Assembly (NCBI GenBank): GCA_016839425.1
Contig: JAEOUI010000499.1
Coordinates: forward strand, 1-10,185
Origin: Promethearchaeota archaeon
Lineage (GTDB): Archaea > Asgardarchaeota > Lokiarchaeia > Sigynarchaeales > SOKP01
Reading direction: 5' to 3'
Length of the DNA stretch: 10,185 nucleotides
Below, piece by piece: positions 1 through 10,185 of this stretch; the stretch's first letter is position 1; every line of letters starts with the position of its first letter. The position numbers and the translations under genes are program-made. The notes beneath the pieces were generated by a model. The model searched no databases. It saw only the letters and a program-made list of their open reading frames with translations, and was not told the origin of the DNA.

Positions 1-1497
1 CTCATTTCTCCTTTGTTTTCTAACATTGCTAAGACCAAGCAAGCGATCCAATCCAAGCTTTTAATATCTACGGGTAAAAAAGGAAGGGTTCAATATAAGG
101 GATTTATCCACGAGATCGAACTTTTCAAGAGCACCGAATTTAAAGAATACGATAGTTATGATATTTTTTTAGTAAAAAGCGATAATTTTTTTTTATCAGG
201 TGATAATCCATATTTCGATTCGTGGAGATTTGACTCCTTGATACACGATTCATACTTTCTATCAAAATCGATACCTATAGTATTAAAACTAATTCGAGAA
301 AAATATCCCCCGCCCTACATTCTACACCTACAGGATTGGGAAACAGCATTAGTAGCGGATATCATACCATCAGTGAACGGTACCAAGAGCGTGCTCACGC
401 TTCACAATCCATACGACGAGTATCTTCCAAACGACCCCCAAGGACGTACGATCCTTCAGTTCACGATTCCAAAAATGCAAGGAATTTCGACGGTTTCCGA
501 GGAGTTTTCACGGGAATTTCAGAACGATATTTTAGTTCATGATGTGTTAAGCCAAAAAATTCGTCAAGAATTACAAATTCTACCACCTATTGGAATTAAT
601 AACGGTAATTTTGTCCCCCTATCGTTTCCAGAACATTTAACATGCGTGGAAGATGTATTAAATGAGAAAAGAAGAAATCGGGAGGAATTTTACAAGATCC
701 TCACTAAGCGAGAGGATATAAAACCCAAGTGGGGCCAGCAACTCGAACTTTTAAAAGACGATATTCCGCTTTTCTTCTTATTTGGACGGGACGAACCCAA
801 ACAAAAAGGATTTGATGCGGCAGCAGCAGCAATATTTAGAGTACTAAGAAGGTTAGGACCTGATTCAGCTTTTTTTGTATTAACCCCTATTCCGAGTCCT
901 CGAGGTCTAGATGGATTAGCTTATCTCGAAGATTTATGCCAAGAATTTAGTAAAAATGTAATGGTTTTTCCTTACCGCATTTCAAGCGGGTACGATAATT
1001 TACAAAAAGCAGCAAGTTTTGTTGTCATGCCTTCATATTACGAACCTTTTGGTGCTGCTAACGAGGGATACGCTTCAGGAACGCCCGTGATAGCTAGAGC
1101 CACTGGTGGCCTCATCCAACAAGTAAGTCCTATCAATTTTAACGATTTACCACACTCCATTCAGGTCGAGGTAAAGAGACATCACAAAGACCTCTCCAAA
1201 CCCACGGGATTTTTATTCTGGGAACATCCGAGCACGGAAACAAAAGAAAATTGGGAATACCTCTTGAGCACGGACTTCTCCCAGAGAAGGCCCATAAGAG
1301 AGCCAGTACATTGGAGAAATCCCGTGTTCTGGTCAATGGTCTCCGAACTCGAAAATATAATAGAAAAGGCAATTAATTTTTATAGAGAAGAAAAACAGGG
1401 GTATTGTAGCATGATCATCAATGGCATCCAACTATTCAAGCAATTCTCGTGGGAAAAATCGGCACGGAATTACAGGGAATTATTGTATAAAATCTAA
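1..1497 (+). CDS. glgA: Glycogen/starch synthase-like glycosyltransferase (GT5-type), N-terminus outside window
   Basis: The frame is open from the first base, so the 5' end is cut. The TTG at 13 is not a credible start because this family has a conserved glycine-rich sugar-nucleotide loop several dozen residues further upstream. Counting from the first codon, the 498 visible residues show HLQDWETAL (109-117), LTLHNPY (132-138), a TVSEEFSRE stretch (about 164), NNG (200-202), a GRD..KQKGFD element opening the second Rossmann domain (about 262-272) and PSYYEPFGAANEGYASGTP (344-362) followed by ATGGL (367-371). In GT-B synthases the E-x-F-G and TGGL parts bind nucleotide-sugar and acceptor. The expected reaction is transfer of glucose from ADP- or UDP-glucose to an alpha-1,4-glucan in the cytoplasm. 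Length fits a GT5 enzyme with an insertion between its two domains. The donor cannot be read from sequence, and a divergent branch related to GT3 remains possible. Confidence 0.87.
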   Translation, partial: LISPLFSNIAKTKQAIQSKLLISTGKKGRVQYKGFIHEIELFKSTEFKEYDSYDIFLVKSDNFFLSGDNPYFDSWRFDSLIHDSYFLSKSIPIVLKLIREKYPPPYILHLQDWETALVADIIPSVNGTKSVLTLHNPYDEYLPNDPQGRTILQFTIPKMQGISTVSEEFSREFQNDILVHDVLSQKIRQELQILPPIGINNGNFVPLSFPEHLTCVEDVLNEKRRNREEFYKILTKREDIKPKWGQQLELLKDDIPLFFLFGRDEPKQKGFDAAAAAIFRVLRRLGPDSAFFVLTPIPSPRGLDGLAYLEDLCQEFSKNVMVFPYRISSGYDNLQKAASFVVMPSYYEPFGAANEGYASGTPVIARATGGLIQQVSPINFNDLPHSIQVEVKRHHKDLSKPTGFLFWEHPSTETKENWEYLLSTDFSQRRPIREPVHWRNPVFWSMVSELENIIEKAINFYREEKQGYCSMIINGIQLFKQFSWEKSARNYRELLYKI

Positions 1498-1538
1498 TTT
1501 TAATAATAATAAGAAAATTAATAGCAAGAAAATGGGTT

Positions 1539-3953
1539 TTAAGTTGTTCTTATTTTTTCTTCTGCGATCTTGATTATTTCGTTAAATTCTTTAAACGAGA
1601 ATTTACTAATGATTTCGGAGTATCGAGACGAAAATTCCGTTATTTCATGCATTAAAGAAACCACTTTAACGGGATCGTCAAGCGAGATAATTTGTTCTCG
1701 ATAAACAGATAATTTTTCTCGTATGCCCCTAATAACTTTTTCTTCTGTTGATACTGGAAAATACCTTGTTAAGATCGATTCTGCTCCTTTAAACATTGAT
1801 GTTTCACCGGACCAATTTGCAAGTTGCTTCCCAAATTTGCTCTCAAAAGCTTCTGAGAAACTTTTGAGCCTTTTTCGAATAATGGGCAAGTCTTTATCGC
1901 ACAATAACGCAACTGTAATGCGCGCTCCATGATTTAAAAGAACTTTTTTGTCTTCTTGATCTATCGAACGTAATTGCTTGCCGCTCCCTGTTGCTTCTTT
2001 TGAGAATGTAGTGAGTGCAGAAATCATTCCAGAGATTAATTCAGGTTTGCGCAATTCAATTCCAAAAGAATAGCTATACATACTTACTCCTTCTTTTGTC
2101 AGAACAAATAAATCTCTTAAAGTTTTGCCCCAGTTTCTTTGACGGACATATCTTCTGGCAACGACAGAAATGGGGACTAACGCAATTACCGCACCAACAA
2201 TTGATATTAATAATATAATAGTTTCGGGGGGAATATAGTCATCAGGATGACGAACATCAACGAAAATTGTATAATATGCAACCTCCTTGCCATTCATCCA
2301 AAAAATGTTGACTTGGTAAGTTCCAACTGCTAGATTCGTTCCAAGATACATTTCAGAACTACTGAGCACGCCGTCACTCGATGTGAGATTGTCGTCTTGA
2401 AGTAAAACACTACCTGATGGACTAAGGAAAGTGATATTACCGATCCCTCCCGAGATCGGCGTGTTGTAGGGATCCTTAATCTCTGCTTGGAATCTTATAT
2501 ATTTCCCTAATTGCAAATATCCCTTATTTTGAAATTGATCATTAATTTTTATTTGTGGATTTATTTTCGAACAATAATTGGGAGAGTAAAATGTTCCAAT
2601 GCATGTGCCTAATCCCAATTCGCCACCCCATAAATTAAATAATCCCTCGAAATCTTCATTGTAGACCGTAATAGCCCCTGAAAACATTTCTGTTTCAGAT
2701 CCAATTGGGCTGTAAAAACCATCCAATTCCCAGTCAGGCTCGTATAAGAACCAAAGTTCAGCATTTTTCGCTCCTATATCGTAATAATAGGGATAGGAGA
2801 CATTCCATTGTATGGTGTTATTAATTAGCTGCCAAATACCTGAGGCGTTTATTTGGTAAATGAAATATAATTTTGACTCAACAGCTAGGGACTCAATAAT
2901 TGAACTTGAAAAAATTGTAAAATTTATGTCTTTATTAGGCGGAGAAATAAGATAATATGATATAAACGCCTCGTATCCCGAAGAACCAGGTGCTGTACTT
3001 TTTTGATATGAAGGAATATATTCAGTCCCATCTATTATATACTTGAGATTGATATCTTCTGGATTATAAAGAACATTGTAAGTCATATTGCATAACATGT
3101 CGATGTTTTCCGTAGCGTCAATTTGAATGACATTATTGTTAAAAACATAATATGTAAGTCCTTCATCCTTATCATCGGTTTTTGTCCTGTTCTCAGCAGC
3201 CCATGTACCTTTTACATTATAAGGTTCGAGAATATTTAATCTTGTACCAACCCAATACGCAATATAGTAAGATTTATTTGGAGATAATACGTTTGAACTG
3301 ATATTGTTAAATGTAAACCATCCTGCAACTCCCGGTTCAATTGGAATCACAGAATATCCGAAAGGATCTCCAAAAGCTTCGTCAAAAATCATAACAACAG
3401 AAAATAAAATATTTTTATATACAAGTGGAATGTCAGTGAAATTTAAATAAAGGTTCATTTCGCTAATTGTGAGTTCTCGAGTAATATTAGGAGTTTTAAA
3501 TTCTTGGAGCACCATCCTCCAAAAAGATTGAGGTTGTAAAATACCTTGAGAAGTATTAGTAGCGATAGTAATATTTCCCTCATTTTTAAAAATGTTAAAT
3601 ACCCTAAGATCTACTCTGTTCAAGCTATAATTGAATTCATTAAATTCCCAGGATTTTGGAAGTGATTCGTTAAGCCATGCTTGATTTGACCAAATATTAT
3701 CACTTCCAACGGTTAAACTCTTGATCCCTAATGTAGATATACCTCCATCGTATTGCCCAGAATAAAAAACACCATCAGAGGTTTTCAAACATAAATCCTC
3801 GTTTCGTTCCTTGAAATTTAAGAGAGGAATTTTTACAACTAATGACAAAGCAAAAATTAATATTATTGTAATAAAGTAAATATATATTTTTATGGAATTT
3901 GCTTGGATATTCTTTAATTTGGATATATAATTTTTAGGCACGATTGAAAACAC
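1539..3953 (-). CDS. Two-span membrane protein with large sequon-rich ectodomain and cytoplasmic longin/roadblock-like domain
   Basis: This 804-residue protein probably starts at GTG 3953; an in-frame stop lies 12 codons upstream with no ATG, GTG or TTG between, and the next GTG is residue 5. A lysine-containing N-terminus precedes membrane segment 1 (about 22-46). An outer region (about 47-574) is rich in beta-prone sequence, has 16 N-x-S/T sequons and ends in an Ig-like segment (about 465-567). Membrane segment 2 (about 576-598) is followed by RRYVRQR, consistent with both termini in the cytoplasm. Residues 608-734 show the longin/roadblock pattern: a LFVLTKEGVSMYSYSF strand-turn-strand, a helix ELISGMISALTTFSKE, strands around RSIDQ, KKVLLNHG and ITVALLCDKD, and a helix LKSFSEAFESKFG. 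A charged helical tail (735-804) follows. Such domains typically bind small GTPases; the sensor/receptor role here is inference. No known full-length homologue is recognised. Confidence 0.85.
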   Translation of the reverse strand: MFSIVPKNYISKLKNIQANSIKIYIYFITIILIFALSLVVKIPLLNFKERNEDLCLKTSDGVFYSGQYDGGISTLGIKSLTVGSDNIWSNQAWLNESLPKSWEFNEFNYSLNRVDLRVFNIFKNEGNITIATNTSQGILQPQSFWRMVLQEFKTPNITRELTISEMNLYLNFTDIPLVYKNILFSVVMIFDEAFGDPFGYSVIPIEPGVAGWFTFNNISSNVLSPNKSYYIAYWVGTRLNILEPYNVKGTWAAENRTKTDDKDEGLTYYVFNNNVIQIDATENIDMLCNMTYNVLYNPEDINLKYIIDGTEYIPSYQKSTAPGSSGYEAFISYYLISPPNKDINFTIFSSSIIESLAVESKLYFIYQINASGIWQLINNTIQWNVSYPYYYDIGAKNAELWFLYEPDWELDGFYSPIGSETEMFSGAITVYNEDFEGLFNLWGGELGLGTCIGTFYSPNYCSKINPQIKINDQFQNKGYLQLGKYIRFQAEIKDPYNTPISGGIGNITFLSPSGSVLLQDDNLTSSDGVLSSSEMYLGTNLAVGTYQVNIFWMNGKEVAYYTIFVDVRHPDDYIPPETIILLISIVGAVIALVPISVVARRYVRQRNWGKTLRDLFVLTKEGVSMYSYSFGIELRKPELISGMISALTTFSKEATGSGKQLRSIDQEDKKVLLNHGARITVALLCDKDLPIIRKRLKSFSEAFESKFGKQLANWSGETSMFKGAESILTRYFPVSTEEKVIRGIREKLSVYREQIISLDDPVKVVSLMHEITEFSSRYSEIISKFSFKEFNEIIKIAEEKIRTT

Positions 3954-4004
3954 ATCTTGATTATTTTTAATATATGATGGAACTTACTATTTATTAAGTT
4001 TCAC

Positions 4005-4018
4005 TATATAATTTTAAA
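4005..4018 (-). promoter_or_regulatory. Candidate TATA box for the longin-domain membrane protein gene
   Basis: On the minus strand this reads TTTAAAATTATATA, 52-65 bases before the GTG start at 3953. A start site about 25 bases downstream would leave a leader of roughly 25-30 bases. A run of six T (minus strand, 4029-4034) just upstream could end transcription from the flavoprotein gene, which would make the two minus-strand genes separate units. The whole spacer is AT-rich, so this is suggestive only; a second AT run sits at about 3964-3975. Confidence 0.3.
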
Positions 4019-4069
4019 TAATAGTAGGAAAAAATGAAATTATAATTCGATGAGTATTTTCTGATGGAA

Positions 4070-4642
4070 TTATTTGAGTTTTTCAAGGAGTAATGCCATA
4101 TTCTTTCCAAGATTTTTAAATGTTTCCACTCCTTCCTCATCCTTCTCGATGTCTCCGGGATTCAAACCCATTCCCACATTCCAATAGCTTGAACCCACCA
4201 CAAACATCTCAGCAATCAAAAAAAAGTAATTTATACTTGAAAATACGTGGTTTGCGCCTTGTCTCCTGACAGCCACTACAGCAGCACCCACTTTATGTTT
4301 TAGGAGATTTCCGTTCGCTCGAGCCACGAAACCCGCTCTTTCAATAAGTGCTTTTATATTTGTAGATACATCAGAGAAATATGTGGGCGATCCAAGGATA
4401 ATTCCATCTGAATCCAATATTTTCGCGATATACTCGTTCATCTTGTCGTTTTCTTGGGAGCACTTCAAGTTTTGGTTTGCTTTGCATTTATAGCACGCCA
4501 AGCACCCTCTTAGATTTTCTGCGCCCATCCATACATAATCGCATTCTATTCCTTCTTTTTTCAATTCTTCCATGACAATATTTAGGCAATGGTAAGTATT
4601 ACCTTTTGCCCGTGGACTTCCATTAAATAATACGACCTTCAT
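4070..4642 (-). CDS. Iron-sulfur flavoprotein / NADPH-dependent FMN reductase family protein
   Basis: The 190-residue protein has a flavodoxin-like fold signature: an opening beta strand MKVVLFNGSPR, then KGNT forming the FMN-phosphate loop (8-15), and GSPTYFSDVSTNIKALIERAG-type flavin-contact sequence (84-104). Cysteines at 47, 50, 53 and 61 form C-x2-C-x2-C-x7-C, matching the compact motif of archaeal Isf proteins, which bind one 4Fe-4S cluster next to FMN and pass single electrons from ferredoxin to acceptors. Length agrees with that family. The role is inferred to be cytoplasmic electron transfer, possibly against oxygen or peroxide stress; the physiological partner is unknown. The ATG at 4642 has no Shine-Dalgarno site but has a TATA-like box 26-38 bases upstream, suggesting a leaderless or near-leaderless message. 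It is divergent from the U32 gene and lies 116 bases ahead of the membrane-protein gene on the same strand. Confidence 0.88.
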   Translation of the reverse strand: MKVVLFNGSPRAKGNTYHCLNIVMEELKKEGIECDYVWMGAENLRGCLACYKCKANQNLKCSQENDKMNEYIAKILDSDGIILGSPTYFSDVSTNIKALIERAGFVARANGNLLKHKVGAAVVAVRRQGANHVFSSINYFFLIAEMFVVGSSYWNVGMGLNPGDIEKDEEGVETFKNLGKNMALLLEKLK

Positions 4643-4667
4643 GACTATCGATTAATTATGATTATAA

Positions 4668-4680
4668 TGTTTTATAATTA
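4668..4680 (-). promoter_or_regulatory. Candidate TATA box for the flavoprotein gene
   Basis: The minus strand reads TAATTATAAAACA. It begins 38 bases and ends 26 bases before the ATG at 4642, the spacing of an archaeal TATA box to a transcription start at or just before the start codon. With no Shine-Dalgarno site upstream of that ATG, a leaderless transcript is the simplest reading. AT-richness limits certainty. Confidence 0.35.
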
Positions 4681-4701
4681 AATAGAATACATGAATAATG
4701 C

Positions 4702-4732
4702 TTTAAAATGATTTTAAAATTATCATTTTAAA
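4702..4732. repeat. Perfect 11-bp inverted repeat in a divergent promoter region
   Basis: The left arm TTTAAAATGAT (4702-4712) and right arm ATCATTTTAAA (4722-4732) are exact reverse complements around a 9-base spacer. The site lies 60-90 bases upstream of the flavoprotein start and 89-119 bases upstream of the U32 start, in the 178-base spacer between the two divergent genes. Its symmetry and position suit an operator for a dimeric regulator serving either gene. The spacer itself repeats the TTTAAAAT word, so some of the symmetry comes from low-complexity AT sequence. Confidence 0.45.
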
Positions 4733-4820
4733 TTTGCAATTTGATGCATCTAAAATTTTTTTTTACGATACTGGATTATTTTAAGTAGAGACTTTATCAA
4801 AAGAAAATTGAATAAATTTT

Positions 4821-6077
4821 ATGACGAGTACTTCACCAAGACCTGAACTGGTAGCTCCAGTGCAAAATTGGAATGTCTTAAAGACATTCAAAAAGAATGC
4901 CCTCCCCAACGCAATATATTTTGGCGTAGAAGAATTTAACATGCGGGCGAAAGCAAATAATTTCAAACAAGAAGATTTATTCGATATCGTTTCGTATTGC
5001 ACTACTCAAAATCCAAAAATCAAGACTTATCTTGCGACAAACATCATTATCTACGACCAAGAATTAGAATCTTTACAAGCCTTATTAAAGGTTGCAAAAA
5101 ATGCAGGAATTGACGCAATAATTACTCACGATTTAGCTGGGATTCAAATGGCTCGACGGATGAAAATGCCTTTCCACATTTCAACTCAAGCGAATATATC
5201 AAACATCGAATCTGCGAGATTTTTAGAGGATTTAGGAGCCGAAAGAATTGTACTCGCAAGAGAATTGTCATTGATTCAAATAGAGAATATCAAAAATCAA
5301 CTAAAAACATGTGAAATAGAATGCTTCGTTCATGGCGCCATGTGCACATCGATTAGTGGGAGGTGCTATTTTTCAGCAACCATTTGCGATTCGAACGAGT
5401 TCTCTGCTAATAGAGGACGTTGTGTTCAACCTTGCAGGCGTAAGTGGAGGGTAATTGACGATGAAAATCACGAATTCGTCTACGATGGGTTAAGATTTTT
5501 GAATTCAAAAGATTTGTGCATGATCAAATACATCCCTCAATTAATTGATACTGGAATTGACGCGTTTAAAATCGAGGGGAGGATGAAAGATCCCATCTAT
5601 GTAAGGGAGGTTACTTCTTGCTATCGAGAGGCGATCGATAGTTATTTCGAAGGATCGTTTGATCGAGAGAAAGTGAAAAAATGGACGAGTAGACTTTTGC
5701 AGGTATTTAATCGAGGATTTCATACGGGATTTTATTTTAAAAAACCCACAATTGAAGAAGTCGAATTATTAGAAGAAGGAAACACGTCTCCTTATAAAAA
5801 AAAATATGTTGGTACAATCATTTCATATGATGAGTCAAGCAAGACGGCCAACATAATTATTGAGAATATTAATGTTCCTCTTAAAAGAGGAAGCGAAATT
5901 ATATTACAAAGCAATGATACATATCGTTTTGAAACCATAAAAAAAATGTTTATAGGTGGAGAAAAAATCGTTAATGTCGTAAGGACTGAAAACGACATGC
6001 CTATAAAGCTTAATATTCGATTATCTAAAGGTGCCCAACCCGAAGAGAGGATATATCTGCTCTTAAAGAGCGAATAA
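4821..6077 (+). CDS. Peptidase U32 family protein (TrhP/UbiU-like), single gene
   Basis: The 418-residue protein has a TIM-barrel-like N-terminal part beginning PELVAPVQNW and containing STQANISN (121-128). It carries the U32 signature E-C-F-V-H-G-A-M-C (167-175), then SGRC (179-182), and NRGRCVQPCRR (197-207). Cys175, Cys182, Cys201 and Cys233 are placed much like the four cysteines that hold a 4Fe-4S cluster in characterised U32 proteins. Residues 325-418 form the small beta-barrel C-terminal domain (VGTIISYD onward). Characterised members hydroxylate tRNA uridine 34 (TrhP) or act in oxygen-independent ubiquinone hydroxylation (UbiU/UbiV); 'peptidase' is mostly historical. A tRNA-hydroxylase-like role is the best guess, since archaea lack ubiquinone. 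The ATG at 4821 has no Shine-Dalgarno site. The isoaspartyl methyltransferase gene follows after 30 bases and is probably co-transcribed. Confidence 0.9.
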   Translation: MTSTSPRPELVAPVQNWNVLKTFKKNALPNAIYFGVEEFNMRAKANNFKQEDLFDIVSYCTTQNPKIKTYLATNIIIYDQELESLQALLKVAKNAGIDAIITHDLAGIQMARRMKMPFHISTQANISNIESARFLEDLGAERIVLARELSLIQIENIKNQLKTCEIECFVHGAMCTSISGRCYFSATICDSNEFSANRGRCVQPCRRKWRVIDDENHEFVYDGLRFLNSKDLCMIKYIPQLIDTGIDAFKIEGRMKDPIYVREVTSCYREAIDSYFEGSFDREKVKKWTSRLLQVFNRGFHTGFYFKKPTIEEVELLEEGNTSPYKKKYVGTIISYDESSKTANIIIENINVPLKRGSEIILQSNDTYRFETIKKMFIGGEKIVNVVRTENDMPIKLNIRLSKGAQPEERIYLLLKSE

Positions 6078-6107
6078 ACGACTTAAGTGCATCGGTTTAG
6101 ATTTACA

Positions 6108-6779
6108 ATGAGTTTTGAAGAAAAAAGAAGGGATTTAATTGAAGACCTCCAAAAAAGAGGTGTTTTAACCAAAACAGAAGTGATTAGAGCAATGCTCAAG
6201 GTACCAAGGCATTTATTTTTACCTGAAAAAGCAAGGTCTTCAGCATATATGGATACGCCTTTATTAATTGGAATGAATCAAACAATTAGTGCGCCCCACA
6301 TGAACGCAATGATGTGCGAATACCTTGAACTTAAAGAAGGCGATAAAGTTTTAGAAATCGGAACTGGATCGGGATATCACGCAGCGCTTTGTGCAGAATT
6401 AGTAGCACCTAAGGGGTCTAAAATTCCAGGACATGTGTTCACCATTGAGTATCACAAGGAATTAGCAACAAGCGCAAGAATAAGCTTGAAGGAAACGGGT
6501 TATGACGATAGCGTGACTGTAATTCACGCAGACGGTACTTTGGGTTATCCAGATCAGGCACCTTTTGATAAGATCTTAGTCACGGCGGCTTCTCCAGAAA
6601 AAGTACCCCAAGCATTTAAGGATCAATTAAGGGATGGAGGAATTTTGTGCATCCCTGCTGGATCTAAAAACTACGGTCAAACTTTGTATGTTGTTCGGAA
6701 ATTCGGAAATGCTTTTGAAATTAACAAAAAATGTGGTGTTAGATTTGTCCCACTCGTAGGACAGCATGGATTCGAATAA
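6108..6779 (+). CDS. pcm: Protein-L-isoaspartate O-methyltransferase
   Basis: This cytoplasmic repair enzyme methylates L-isoaspartyl residues of damaged proteins using S-adenosylmethionine, starting their return to normal aspartyl bonds. The 223 residues contain the family motifs in order: FEEKRRDLIEDLQKRGVL at the N-terminus, the substrate-loop NQTISAPHM (57-65, usually G-Q-T-I-S), SAM motif I VLEIGTGSGYHAA (81-93), ADGT (141-144), PFDKILVTAA (152-161) and the C-terminal VRFVPLVG (211-218). Length is typical. I chose ATG 6108 over the in-frame GTG at 6087, which would add seven residues (MHRFRFT) with no counterpart in the family; neither has a Shine-Dalgarno site. The gene follows the U32 stop by 30 bases and probably shares its transcript. 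The N for G change in the substrate loop is minor. Confidence 0.95.
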   Translation: MSFEEKRRDLIEDLQKRGVLTKTEVIRAMLKVPRHLFLPEKARSSAYMDTPLLIGMNQTISAPHMNAMMCEYLELKEGDKVLEIGTGSGYHAALCAELVAPKGSKIPGHVFTIEYHKELATSARISLKETGYDDSVTVIHADGTLGYPDQAPFDKILVTAASPEKVPQAFKDQLRDGGILCIPAGSKNYGQTLYVVRKFGNAFEINKKCGVRFVPLVGQHGFE

Positions 6780-6829
6780 ATTATTTTCATTTATAAAAAT
6801 AAGATTTTAAAAAGAATAAATCGATTAGT

Positions 6830-6997
6830 TCATTCCAGAAATTTTTTTTTATATCTTTTTCGAGCTAGTTTATTGCGGATCTCTTTATAGAATTCATTAC
6901 GTTCTATATTACCTTTTAACATGTCTTCGCAACCATTCCAACAAAAACATTTCTTTAAATCGCGACATTCTATCATTTTTTTATCATTTTCTCTCAT
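6830..6997 (-). CDS. Small cysteine-rich basic protein (55 aa), hypothetical
   Basis: The frame runs from ATG 6997 to TGA 6830 without interruption, in AT-rich DNA where random frames usually stop much sooner. No other ATG, GTG or TTG lies between the upstream in-frame stop and this ATG. The product has four cysteines close together, at 11, 17, 19 and 23 (C-x5-C-x-C-x3-C, within IECRDLKKCFCWNGCEDM), then a lysine/arginine-rich helical tail (28-55) ending RKRYKKKFLE. The cluster suggests a bound metal, most likely zinc, and the tail suggests nucleic-acid or protein binding; both are inference. A TATA-like box sits 30-42 bases upstream and a weak GGA about 12 bases before the ATG. It converges on the methyltransferase gene with a 50-base gap. 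A run of nine A near the 3' end could hide a sequencing indel affecting only the tail. I do not recognise the family. Confidence 0.55.
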   Translation of the reverse strand: MRENDKKMIECRDLKKCFCWNGCEDMLKGNIERNEFYKEIRNKLARKRYKKKFLE

Positions 6998-7026
6998 TAT
7001 TCTATTCCAAAATAAATGAGATAAAC

Positions 7027-7039
7027 TATATTTTTTAAA
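7027..7039 (-). promoter_or_regulatory. Candidate TATA box for the small cysteine-rich ORF
   Basis: The minus strand reads TTTAAAAAATATA, 30-42 bases before the ATG at 6997. That spacing allows a transcript with a very short leader. It supports separate transcription of the 55-residue ORF rather than read-through from the 53-residue ORF upstream. Low-complexity AT sequence nearby keeps confidence low. Confidence 0.3.
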
Positions 7040-7103
7040 CTGAGTGTCATAGACTATAAAAAATAGCAGTTTTTACCTTAATCAAATAAAGAAATTGCGA
7101 GTA

Positions 7104-7119
7104 TTTATAATATTATAAA
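7104..7119. repeat. 16-bp perfect AT-only palindrome between two small ORFs
   Basis: TTTATAATATTATAAA is its own reverse complement. It sits 13-28 bases past the stop of the 53-residue ORF and more than 100 bases upstream of the 55-residue ORF. It contains only A and T in an AT-rich spacer, so it may be chance, a weak transcript end or a binding site. Confidence 0.25.
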
Positions 7120-7131
7120 AGTAAAAGTTTT

Positions 7132-7293
7132 TTAATGCAACTTTTTAACATGGTTTTGAATTTGTTTCTCAATCTTGGCTCTAACAAGCTTTTTTCGAAT
7201 GTTCCTTACATGGGCATTTTTTTCGAAGATCTCTCCGATAGATTTTCTCGTGAAGGACCAGCTGTTTCCCGCAGAAATTTTGTTGTGCTGCAT
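7132..7293 (-). CDS. Small strongly basic protein (53 aa), hypothetical
   Basis: The frame runs from ATG 7291-7293 to TAA 7132-7134. The product opens with a polar stretch (MQHNKISAGNSWSFTRKS) and continues as a predicted amphipathic basic helix from about 19 to 53, including NIRKKLVRAK and ending HVKKLH. It has 13 Lys/Arg and four His against three acidic residues. The codons use more C and G at third positions than the surrounding spacer, which favours coding. The complementary strand is also open (about 7135-7335) but gives a less protein-like hydrophobic product. There is no Shine-Dalgarno site; AT-rich TATA-like words lie at about 7304-7315 and 7341-7356. It lies between the terminator of the GH57 gene and the cysteine-rich small ORF, all on the minus strand. 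No family is recognised; RNA or DNA binding is a guess from charge alone. Confidence 0.42.
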   Translation of the reverse strand: MQHNKISAGNSWSFTRKSIGEIFEKNAHVRNIRKKLVRAKIEKQIQNHVKKLH

Positions 7294-7371
7294 TGTTATA
7301 GCTGTTTTTTATTTAGTAAAGTTGCTTATTTTTAATTGTGTTTAAAATTATTTAAAGGTAGAGAATTTCGA

Positions 7372-7405
7372 CAAAAATATTCCGCTTACAAAAGTGTAAA
7401 CGGAA
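7372..7405 (-). terminator. Hairpin plus T-tract terminator after the GH57 gene
   Basis: Immediately after the TAG of the GH57 gene the minus strand reads TTCCGTTTAC, loop ACTTTT, GTAAGCGGAA, then TATTTTTG. The stem is ten pairs. The single non-Watson-Crick position is a stable G-U pair in the minus-strand RNA but an A-C mismatch in plus-strand RNA, so the orientation fits termination of the GH57 transcript. A further T run sits between the stop codon and the stem. Confidence 0.6.
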
Positions 7406-7408
7406 AAA

Positions 7409-9556
7409 CTAATACATTTTTAAGCACAGGTTCAATTCAAATTTAGCTCCAAATTTTACATGAGGCGTGATGTTTATCCCTTGATATATTTCTTTGTATC
7501 CTTCGTCTGTAAAAACATAAGCAATTATTGGAAAAACATTAAACTGCATTCCTTGAGAATCCCCCATAATGCTAATTTCAAAAGTAAAGTCGTAAATTTC
7601 GTCGAATGCTTTGAAGTGTGAACCAAGAAACCTAAATGGTTGCAATGAATTTGAAGACATATCAATATTCTCTTTTAAATCCTTGCTTTCAAAATGAAAT
7701 CGCTTGGGATCCCCGTTAAAAAAGAACGGAATATCCAATGCCAGATTTAAATTTTTGATAATTCTATCTGAAGAAAATTTTTTTTCTTGGTTAATATCAA
7801 ATTTTCCATCAATATTGATATCAATTTGGGTGCCACTAACATTTATTTTTTTAGTAATCGTGCAGGGAATCCTCTCATCAGATTCGGTATCTTTTACATT
7901 TCCTTCCATTTCAAGAATAAGTTCTGCAACTTTATTTTTAACAGAACTTGCTTTAATTTTGAATTCTCCGTTGACGAAATTTCCAAATTCGTAATAATCA
8001 TCGGCAATTAATTGCTCAAATTTCACATCGTCGTGAAGGAACCGTAAGCGTAACATCGATCGTCGGAACTTATCAACATGAATTTCACCCAATTTTATTT
8101 TATTTTCATCATGATAAGCCTCAGGCCATCGAGTTAAAGTGTTTAATAAATTATATGATTTTGGTTTAAAATCTAATTCAAAAATAGTCCCTCCGTTTGA
8201 AGGATCAATATATACATTTAACAAATCTGATTCGATCAAGACATCGCTCTTGCTGTTTCTGGTAAAATCCATTGGTTCTAACCACATGAAAGAACTTTGT
8301 TGAGCGACGAGCAATCCATTCATCTCATCAATTAATTTTTCTGCGTTAATCAAGTGAGTATACACTGAAAATCGCAAGAATTGTAAGTAAACACCTCCAA
8401 ATAAACCGTGCCAATAGCAATCGTTGCATTGACTTTTATAAATCTCGTCCCAGCTTTCAAGTACCTTGGGTTTTAGTTTTGAAACAAGCTCGGAATCCTT
8501 GATTTTTTTAATTTTGCTCTCGACTTGAAGTAACTTGTCTCTAACATGCAACATCTTTTTGTGCATGTTGTTTGATTCTGGGTATTTTACCAAAAATGAC
8601 CTCCAAAAGCCTCCTTTCAAAAATTGATAAGCTTCGTGCCAGGTTTTATATTTTTTCGTGTGTTGCATAATTTGTTGATATTTCTTTCTCATTTGGGTTG
8701 GAAGCACCCATTCTTCCATCTTGTCGTAGCTAGCCGTCGGAAGATAGATTAAATCCTTAGCAGGATGTTGCCACATATATTCAAAGAGAGTTATACTTTT
8801 GATCCAATCGTTATCTTCTACTTGCTTGAAAAGCGAAGGTAAGAAGGGCCTTCCATTATCCCCTTCTTGGTGTCCATAGCCCTCAATATAACAAATTTGA
8901 TGTGTTGATCCCCAAACACCCATCTTTTCTGCATCTGATATTAGTAAAGCGAACCTATCCCCTTTTTCATCAGCTATACTCCGCAAATAATCAATAGTCT
9001 CGTGAGTGGGCTTCCAAGGAGTTAAATATCTAATTTGCTCGTTTATTGGAAATACACGAAGAGTCTTTCCCTCGTCTTCGGTAACATACGAGTAAAAAGT
9101 GTCTTCTTCTGAAATACCCGAGGATCTAAAATGATTATCGTCAACAATCACATATTTTAATCCTACTTCCGTCAAGAAGGAAGGATAAGAGGGTTCCCAA
9201 ACTCGTTCCGATAACCAAGCGCCCTTTGGCGTTATTCCAAATTCCTCTTCTACGAGATGGGAAAGCTTTCTCATTTGAGCGATTTTATCTCTTGTGGGAA
9301 TGATTGCGTAGATTGGTTCGTAATAACCCCCGCCAATGATTTCAATTTGATCCCTTTTTGCCATTTGCTTGAGCTTGTTGATAAGATGAGGTTTATTCTC
9401 AATAAACCATTCCAATAAATTCCCTGAGAAATGGAGCGTTGCTTTAACCTTAGGATGCTCGTAAAGGGTATTTATTAAGGGTCCATAAGATTTATTATAA
9501 CAATCTTCAATCACATGTTCAAAATTATCGACTGGTTGGTGAAAGTGAAAAACCAT
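7409..9556 (-). CDS. GH57 4-alpha-glucanotransferase / alpha-amylase family enzyme
   Basis: The 715-residue protein carries the conserved GH57 regions: HFHQP (4-8), GGGYYEPI (75-82), WLSERVWEP (114-122) with nucleophile Glu117, and ISDAEKMGVWG (206-216) with acid/base Asp208. The 91-residue spacing of the catalytic pair equals that of the Thermococcus litoralis 4-alpha-glucanotransferase (Glu123, Asp214). QCNDCYWHGLFGG (376-388) marks the helical DUF1925-type domain, and about 435-715 is the beta-rich DUF1926-type C-terminal domain. Such enzymes transfer or hydrolyse alpha-1,4-glucan chains; no signal peptide is seen, so it acts in the cytoplasm on glycogen or maltodextrins. The catalytic residues sit six positions early relative to that enzyme, and the first beta strand looks clipped, so translation may start at ATT 9583, adding nine residues. 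The gene ends at a hairpin terminator and is divergent from a maltokinase-like gene. Transferase versus amylase is undecided. Confidence 0.92.
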   Translation of the reverse strand: MVFHFHQPVDNFEHVIEDCYNKSYGPLINTLYEHPKVKATLHFSGNLLEWFIENKPHLINKLKQMAKRDQIEIIGGGYYEPIYAIIPTRDKIAQMRKLSHLVEEEFGITPKGAWLSERVWEPSYPSFLTEVGLKYVIVDDNHFRSSGISEEDTFYSYVTEDEGKTLRVFPINEQIRYLTPWKPTHETIDYLRSIADEKGDRFALLISDAEKMGVWGSTHQICYIEGYGHQEGDNGRPFLPSLFKQVEDNDWIKSITLFEYMWQHPAKDLIYLPTASYDKMEEWVLPTQMRKKYQQIMQHTKKYKTWHEAYQFLKGGFWRSFLVKYPESNNMHKKMLHVRDKLLQVESKIKKIKDSELVSKLKPKVLESWDEIYKSQCNDCYWHGLFGGVYLQFLRFSVYTHLINAEKLIDEMNGLLVAQQSSFMWLEPMDFTRNSKSDVLIESDLLNVYIDPSNGGTIFELDFKPKSYNLLNTLTRWPEAYHDENKIKLGEIHVDKFRRSMLRLRFLHDDVKFEQLIADDYYEFGNFVNGEFKIKASSVKNKVAELILEMEGNVKDTESDERIPCTITKKINVSGTQIDINIDGKFDINQEKKFSSDRIIKNLNLALDIPFFFNGDPKRFHFESKDLKENIDMSSNSLQPFRFLGSHFKAFDEIYDFTFEISIMGDSQGMQFNVFPIIAYVFTDEGYKEIYQGINITPHVKFGAKFELNLCLKMY

Positions 9557-9580
9557 GGGAAAATAAATGCTTTTTTCGGT

Positions 9581-9596
9581 AATTGATCGTGCACCT
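9581..9596 (-). promoter_or_regulatory. Shine-Dalgarno site and possible ATT start of the GH57 gene
   Basis: On the minus strand AAAAGGTG is followed by eight bases and an in-frame ATT (9581-9583). AGGTG pairs with the archaeal 16S 3' end at a normal distance from this ATT but lies 35 bases from the ATG at 9556. Starting here adds ITEKSIYFP before MVFHFHQP and completes the first beta strand of the catalytic domain. Confidence 0.45.
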
Positions 9597-9630
9597 TTTA
9601 ATTTGTTAATGAACGATTAAGAGTCGTGTG

Positions 9631-9641
9631 TTTTTAATTAT
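9631..9641 (-). promoter_or_regulatory. Candidate TATA box for the GH57 gene
   Basis: The minus strand reads ATAATTAAAAA about 48-58 bases before the candidate ATT start. A start site some 25 bases downstream would give a leader of about 25 bases that includes the Shine-Dalgarno site. Plausible by spacing only. Confidence 0.3.
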
Positions 9642-9670
9642 TTCGCATAACAATATTTAAAATAATACAG

Positions 9671-9683
9671 ATTTTAAAATATT
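9671..9683 (+). promoter_or_regulatory. Candidate TATA box for the maltokinase-like gene
   Basis: ATTTTAAAATATT lies 28-40 bases before the ATG at 9711. No Shine-Dalgarno site precedes that ATG, so a short-leader or leaderless message fits. The divergent GH57 promoter lies next to it, so the two glucan genes could share regulation. Confidence 0.3.
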
Positions 9684-9710
9684 CCTAAAGCATAGAAAAA
9701 AATTACTATC

Positions 9711-10185
9711 ATGGATAATATCATTACAAAAAAAAAAATATTAACAATATTTAATACAACAGAATTTAAAAATTGGTTAATCAAGCGTCGTTGGTTTTCC
9801 GATAAACAAGAACTTTCTACTCTTGGATTTGATATCTTAATAACTAATATAGAATTTCTTAGCAAAAATTTTGTGTTGTGCGTTATTGAAATTAGGAAAG
9901 CTAATTATCAAAAATTCTATTTCTTTCCCTTAGCGTTTTTTTTCAAATTGAAAGAAGTGTTAGAATACAATGAGATGGAGGAAAAAGAAATCATAGATCT
10001 GGAGGATAGTGCCTATACTGGCGAAATAAAGATAATTGAAGCGGAATTATTCAAACAATTTTGGCGTTATTTGTTTTCTAGAACTAGTAAGAATGAAACT
10101 AAAAGCGGTTTTTTCGAATTTATAATATTTGGGACGGAGAATATTATTAATATTAAAAGAGATATCTTAAACTTAGTTAATGCTC
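9711..10185 (+). CDS. Maltokinase-like protein, N-terminal cap domain only (3' end outside window)
   Basis: The frame is open from ATG 9711 through the last base (158 complete codons). It carries the hallmark of the maltokinase N-terminal cap: FKNWLIKRRWFSDK (19-32), like the W-L-x-x-R-R-W-F-x-x-K motif of that family. A hydrophobic strand follows, with YFFPL (70-74) in the position of the conserved y-x-l-P-L, and IIEAELFKQFWRYL (108-121) matches the D-A-x-x-D-x-x-F segment. The kinase domain itself lies beyond the window. Maltokinase phosphorylates maltose with ATP to maltose-1-phosphate, the GlgE substrate for building alpha-1,4-glucan; the same cap occurs in some glucosamine kinases and in TreS fusions. 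Position beside a divergent GH57 gene supports alpha-glucan metabolism. A run of eleven A at codons 6-10 is a weak point for sequence accuracy, but the motifs lie downstream of it in this frame. Confidence 0.72.
   Translation, partial: MDNIITKKKILTIFNTTEFKNWLIKRRWFSDKQELSTLGFDILITNIEFLSKNFVLCVIEIRKANYQKFYFFPLAFFFKLKEVLEYNEMEEKEIIDLEDSAYTGEIKIIEAELFKQFWRYLFSRTSKNETKSGFFEFIIFGTENIINIKRDILNLVNA

Follow-up and report, generated by a model that had tools for sequence, protein, structure and literature searches.

In human cells the longin fold is often used as a platform on which small GTPases dock, and longins, like roadblocks, are known as dimers. Sec22b, VAMP7 and Ykt6 have an N-terminal longin followed by a SNARE motif, with a C-terminal anchor in Sec22b and VAMP7 and no ectodomain. 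Asgard genomes contain dozens of small GTPases and longins. We have analyzed a stretch of 10,185 nt from a Promethearchaeota archaeon (assembly GCA_016839425.1, contig JAEOUI010000499.1, positions 1 to 10,185; the window, in what follows), in which a gene on the minus strand codes for a protein that very probably joins an outer domain, a membrane span and a cytosolic longin. It is already known that longins and longin-GTPase fusions exist in Asgard archaea and are abundant there, and both are in print (PMC10933270, PMC4917890). Asgard proteins joining Vps28-C, adaptin appendage and longin domains have also been described (PMC10936438). In the open-licence literature we have found no description of a longin behind a span with an outer domain; subscription papers, preprints and supplements lie outside that scope, so the layout may already be in print.

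The features of the protein, all on the minus strand, are as follows.

1539..3953, minus strand: the whole open reading frame (ORF), an open frame of 804 codons with a GTG taken as start and a second in-frame GTG at 3941.
3852..3908, minus strand: N-terminal hydrophobic segment, residues 16-34, a signal peptide or first membrane anchor, from hydropathy and the model.
2229..3833, minus strand: ectodomain, residues 41-575, nearly all beta, from a model that is confident from about residue 61 and from sequon density.
3069..3587, minus strand: lectin-like beta sandwich region, residues 123-295.
2235..2582, minus strand: membrane-proximal macroglobulin-type (MG) domain, residues 458-573.
2163..2225, minus strand: membrane span, residues 577-597, from hydropathy, the model and the charge profile.
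1752..2123, minus strand: longin domain, residues 611-734, with the elements b1 b2 a1 b3 b4 b5 a2 a3, from models and structure searches.
1545..1748, minus strand: conserved helical tail, residues 736-803, from models and conservation.

An earlier reading of the sequence alone (the sequence-only reading) had proposed a longin/roadblock-like domain at about residues 608-734. When the structure prediction is searched against longin and roadblock structures, a longin fold is recovered in this region: The modelled strands and helices span residues 612-731, the VIA alignments cover about 611-733, and the order b1-b2-a1-b3-b4-b5-a2-a3 is present in the DSSP assignments of both models. A helix also precedes b1, as the continuation of the membrane span in the model. 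The match to solved longins extends over the whole domain. Longin rows align with 114-128 residues of the cytosolic model and end at about position 132-148, except for a chain of the signal recognition particle (SRP) receptor, aligned over 101 residues. Roadblock rows align with only 98-105 residues and end at 110-115, so that they miss the second helix after the sheet, which is modelled and which the longin rows cover. The longin rows also reach higher Z values. A set of 40 related longins, the window's among them, was compared with curated families at the lax limit of E 0.1, which lets in 38 families altogether. The fold-sensible matches are longin families (7 PF19036, 6 Sybindin, 3 Intu_longin_1, 2 Longin and 1 Clat_adaptor_s); none of the 25 listed families, out of the 38, is a roadblock family. 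The longin half of the earlier proposal stands, while the roadblock half is rejected on match length and helix order: A cytosolic roadblock in place of a longin is hardly credible.

The top structural neighbours include longins of guanine nucleotide exchange factors (GEFs) for Rab GTPases. SNARE and coat longins are close behind, those of Sec22b, VAMP7, AP and COPI scoring at most about 2-3 Z units below the top rows, and Sec22b ties with Trs23 in one structure search. Foldseek gives moderate TM-scores, 0.29-0.49 when scaled to the length of the model and 0.19-0.67 when scaled to the target. At the sequence level, no Pfam or NCBIfam family is found for the window protein at E 1, and its 206-residue cytosolic part gives DUF5965 only at E 10. 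A profile from a 16-row alignment of the cytosolic part (A3) finds four rows among the sequences of solved structures, at E 0.15-0.45, none of them a longin. A 40-row profile reaches Trs23 at 0.011, other TRAPP subunits at 0.04-0.35 and MON1 at 0.13-0.23; it also matches non-longins at 0.0086 and 0.036, so this link is weak. A chain of matches passes through L058, a 125-residue standalone longin from a single-contig Lokiarchaeal chromosome (G001, CP070831.1, the genome of L009). L058 matches A3 at E 1.3e-6 and is above the Pfam cut-off for PF19036, Fuz_longin_1, the FUZ/MON1/HPS1 longin; among 20 fragments examined singly, it is the only one over a longin family cut-off. By way of this intermediate, the window longin is linked by sequence to a curated longin family.

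These neighbours also bear on another possibility, a receptor for cargo or adhesion with a longin that would recruit sorting or cytoskeletal proteins, in the way that SNARE and adaptor longins bind partners and do not act on GTPases. The closeness of the SNARE and coat longins speaks for it, and so does the ectodomain, whose likeness in structure searches is to lectin-like and macroglobulin folds. No Pfam SNARE or coat family appears in the window protein at E 1, however, and the only related longin over a Pfam cut-off fits the FUZ/MON1/HPS1 model. We consider such a receptor unlikely.

Hydropathy, on which all our transmembrane (TM) counts rest, gives two segments in the window protein, residues 16-34 and 579-597. 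In 103 of 104 proteins the inner span lies 187-224 residues from the C-terminus; the sole exception, P0004, is a piece which ends before the segment. Most proteins of more than 700 residues have the N-terminal segment, eight being without it at the threshold used. The mean net charge is -1.9 in the 15 residues before the second span and +4.5 after it (102 of 103 homologue rows), and it is +2.3 preceding the N-terminal segment (92 homologues). N-glycosylation sequons, counted in 103 of the 104 proteins, reach 2.9 per 100 residues in the outer part, 2.6 times the 1.1 expected from composition, and 0.19 per 100 residues in the inner part, less than half of the 0.42 expected. The charge asymmetry and the sequon densities form a statistical argument consistent with a domain outside the cell and a longin inside it. 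Prediction thus agrees with the sequence-only reading both on the membrane-anchored architecture (hydropathy, model and charge) and on a longin inside the cell (charge flip across the span, sequons depleted inside).

A search with the whole protein finds three relatives besides the protein itself. With residues 560-804 we have found 102 proteins, itself included, the weakest at E 3.4e-44, so the observation is not due to chance. All 25 organism-named rows among them are Asgard (Promethearchaeota, Lokiarchaeota, Helarchaeota, Hermodarchaeota and Hodarchaeota), as expected from the archaeal origin suggested before. A single-sequence scan of genome contigs gave no relative. The A3 scan, with one genome per species, yielded 17 loci, every one of them with a title of Loki-, Hel- or Heimdallarchaeota; the match of the Heimdall locus, L017, is weak, and no span is obvious in it. 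Matches to A3 at 1e-20 are found in at least 110 of 227 genomes of the phylum, a count which includes other longin proteins. The family of the window protein, taken as A3 matches at 1e-70 or better, is found in at least 13 of the 227, and a fourteenth genome, G122, carries it in two pieces, one of which is L016. Since only the best candidates per genome were scored in the many-genome searches (13 with A3, 7 with the 7-TM type described below), these genome counts are lower bounds. Judging by their locus numbers, P0002 and P0005 are neighbours on one contig, and L013 has two side-by-side copies of the family. We have also considered stand-alone versions: By length (113-360 residues) there are 25 candidates, which are probably pieces, since 24 of them are known only from contigs of less than 5 kb.

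Conservation along the protein is highest in the cytosolic module. Identity to the window protein is 41-68% for residues 600-804, in the 102 of 103 relatives having them, and 19-55% for residues 40-570 in the 103 relatives. In the homologue alignment the most conserved stretch is a1-b3-b4, and the tail, at about 2.7 bits, equals the longin's second half in conservation. This is the reverse of what would be expected if the protein were mainly a structural component of the S-layer or envelope, with the longin merely an anchor or dimer clamp. The ectodomain does suit such a role, being a sequon-rich beta sandwich with the S-layer protein 8s80 among its weaker Foldseek rows; even so, we regard a mainly structural protein as quite improbable. 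A separate observation is P0011, which keeps the inner module at 61% identity under 12 LVIVD repeats (a propeller) and TSP3 repeats outside. It represents an exchange of ectodomain over the same TM-longin module, found on one contig of 4143 bases.

The profile search for the TM-longin layout proposed with the sequence-only reading has found further examples in Asgard genomes, and the layout cannot be taken for a lone oddity. In G001, A3 finds 15 places at E 0.01, and the 40-row profile finds 40 longin places, 41 ORFs in our table. The first Lokiarchaeum is described with 41 longin-like domains (PMC4917890). By profile and hydropathy, 11 of the 41 G001 proteins are membrane proteins with a C-terminal longin. 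Six have an outer part and a single span just before the longin (L121, a member of the window family, L122-L125 and L132), and five are polytopic (L120, L127, two in L135, and L140). We have left outside this count L134, L136 and L139, which have a hydrophobic stretch just after the longin, and L141, whose stretch is far before it. The window protein is therefore one of a set of single-pass and polytopic membrane proteins of Asgard archaea with a related inner longin.

Several other types have been detected. The 7-TM type (L052 1231-2547, minus strand; L127 1477-2793, minus strand; L082-L089) has about 438 residues and a cytosolic C-terminal longin. Its nine-row average, in which two rows are the same gene, has seven hydrophobic runs, the last two of which overlap in a stretch with room for both, and the longin begins at about 231. 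No Pfam family is above the cut-off for this type. At 1e-20 it has matches in at least 64 of 227 Asgard genomes, a count that takes in shorter relatives (about 360 residues), and many genomes have several places. L063, L070, L071, L076, L049, L077, L078 and L081 are polytopic, with about 9-12 hydrophobic segments (7 in L049, which is cut) and a C-terminal longin: They are transporter-like proteins with a longin, and L070 is weakly MFS-like (MFS_1 at 2e-4, below the cut-off). L066 (3-3998, plus strand) and L068 (3827-6499, minus strand) are large and sequon-rich, with a longin and then a winged helix (PF24409, above the cut-off). Ahead of the longin there is a span in L068; in L066 there is only a weaker stretch that does not reach the threshold, and L075 likewise has no span at the threshold. 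L066 and L068 are possible membrane-bound regulators. We should also note G004, the Helarchaeon of L012 and L013, with 101 A3 matches at E 0.01 against 13-32 in six other genomes, a large expansion of its longin set.

A connection between these longins and small GTPases would rest on the fold neighbours, which include Rab-GEF longins, on the sequence chain via L058 and on longin-GTPase fusions. In L056 (985-1854, minus strand), a related longin at residues 3-118 is fused to a Ras/Arf-type GTPase within 127-261, by Pfam. Two side cases are L007 (15939-16609, plus strand), a longin-GTPase fusion by profile and BLAST which runs off the locus end, and L012 (1381-2328, minus strand), whose N-terminal domain reads by eye like a roadblock and is followed by a GTPase domain. 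Three soluble-looking proteins of G001 may also be mentioned (L143, L145, L150): They have about 650 residues, a longin near the C-terminus and no spans detected, and in each case the Ras profile also matches on the same strand, 231-350 bases beyond the longin match.

Several results weigh against such a connection. No GTPase is found by Pfam among the seven window ORFs scanned. For the 11 membrane longins of G001, the observed counts with a GTPase within 1, 3 and 5 kb are 0, 1 and 5, against 0.71, 1.50 and 2.32 expected by rotation (P = 1.0, 0.77 and 0.07): The membrane longins have no close GTPase linkage, and any excess at 5 kb is weak. An earlier linkage test in G001, with 15 A3 matches, was flat at the same three distances. 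The window longin matches no Pfam or NCBIfam longin family, its first helix is of lower confidence (pLDDT 64-69 in one model, about 79 in the other), and the SNARE, coat and SRP receptor longins in the same structure-match lists show that the fold serves other roles. Finally, the C-terminal winged helix of two relatives suggests another output in some members.

Linkage of the other longins was compared in the same way. For all the longins, counted as 40 places, the observed numbers are 5 at 1 kb (2.46 expected, P = 0.09), 7 at 3 kb (5.42, P = 0.28) and 14 at 5 kb (8.21, P = 0.03). For the 29 soluble ones they are 5 (1.73, P = 0.03), 6 (3.96, P = 0.21) and 9 (5.88, P = 0.14), the five at 1 kb including one fusion. 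These are nine comparisons in one genome, each with an uncorrected P value. Four short Ras pieces were left out of the GTPase places, and some places are pieces of one ORF. The Ras profile also matches in 12 of 14 control genomes, Escherichia coli included, so the weaker places need not be small GTPases. In MK-D1 the small GTPase genes are generally outside operons with longin genes (PMC10933270), which makes missing linkage weak evidence either way.

One apparent linkage was examined and rejected. In L005-L008 the family gene is followed on the same strand by genes for an MFS transporter, a Ras-like GTPase (181-183 residues) and a beta-eliminating lyase, the annotation being by Pfam on L006 only; the GTPase gene is about 1.7-3.5 kb downstream. 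The four loci share one neighbourhood and count as one event. The MFS and lyase families are also present in L010 and L011, where no ORF clusters with these GTPases, and the chromosome-wide test of the membrane class is not clear.

The strongest rival takes the longin as a dimerising transmission domain, like HAMP or PAS, which hands the signal to the part that follows, with no GTPase. The missing close linkage, the winged helix that follows the longin in L066 and L068 with a score over the Pfam cut-off, and the well conserved tail of the family are all in its favour. The tail is short and helical, however, with no recognised output fold (though its fold has barely been tested), and proteins that handle GTPases are among the relatives of the longin in structure and sequence. 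This rival seems to us somewhat unlikely.

The explanation we prefer is that of a type I surface protein of Asgard archaea which would act on GTPases from the membrane. Prediction supports outer beta-sandwich domains that lie outside, where a ligand may bind, and a single span joining the ectodomain to the cytosolic longin and helical tail. The longins would pair through the first helix and third strand, within the most conserved stretch, as may be supposed from the known dimers, longin and roadblock dimers being named as such in PMC10933270. At the membrane, a longin pair would then form a platform to which one of the cell's own Ras-superfamily GTPases binds and by which it is regulated, and outer events would bias the loading or placement of this GTPase. 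For the whole explanation, architecture, pairing and GTPase regulation included, we estimate a probability of about 0.5. The broader proposal, an Asgard receptor class of varied single-pass, 7-TM and transporter-like proteins in which the longin output directly sets the state or place of a Ras-, Arf- or Rag-like GTPase, is more tentative and on balance doubtful.

As a probable cell-surface protein with an inner longin, a fold that often docks GTPases, the window protein may be a receptor-like link between the outside of the cell and its GTPase switches. Gene order makes the matching of GTPases and regulators difficult (PMC10933270). A membrane-wired longin with an outer domain offers concrete candidates for the input, and for the place where GTPases could meet the membrane, and every membrane-longin class supplies a defined protein for testing. 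The layout also bears on the origin of eukaryotic membrane-identity systems: Longins may predate inner membranes, serving at the cell surface. If the set does act as GTPase receptors, it would be a new kind of receptor, and ligand-controlled GTPase regulators would pre-date eukaryotes, built from longins that later became Rab GEFs.

As for the rest of the window, an FMN reductase-like gene (4070-4642, PF03358) is found upstream on the same strand, 116 bases from the longin gene. In L002, a Lokiarchaeal contig, the homologue is read as two ORFs; it is adjoined by ORFs which cluster with the FMN reductase (family 10), U32 peptidase family (family 16) and PCMT (family 15) genes of the window, which therefore looks like an ordinary piece of Asgard chromosome. 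A correspondence between the GTG at 3941 and the start of L002 was considered and dropped, the ATG of L002 being out of frame with its ORF. The Pfam scan also gives a GH57 alpha-amylase/glucanotransferase family gene (7409-9556, minus strand) and a starch synthase-like or GT4-type glycosyltransferase gene (1-1497, plus strand), which flank the longin gene and suggest that genes of glucan metabolism are nearby.

The protein can be compared with several known systems. The Rab-GEF longins (TRAPP Trs23/Bet5, Fuzzy-Inturned, Mon1-Ccz1) are among the closest, but they are subunits of soluble or peripheral complexes, and we know of no Rab-GEF longin with an ectodomain and span in front. In the longin SNAREs the domain order is the reverse of that found here, and the window protein matches no SNARE family at E 1. 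The soluble longins and longin-GTPase fusions of Asgard archaea are found with the same profile in the same genomes, but they have neither span nor ectodomain. The roadblocks MglB, LAMTOR and MK-D1 Roadblock3 share a related core sheet, but their match is shorter and ends ahead of the last longin helix. The inner domain of plexins is of the RasGAP type, unlike the longin in our case. With no homology claimed, plexins may still be a functional analogy, as surface receptors with an inner domain that regulates GTPases (PMC3787391).
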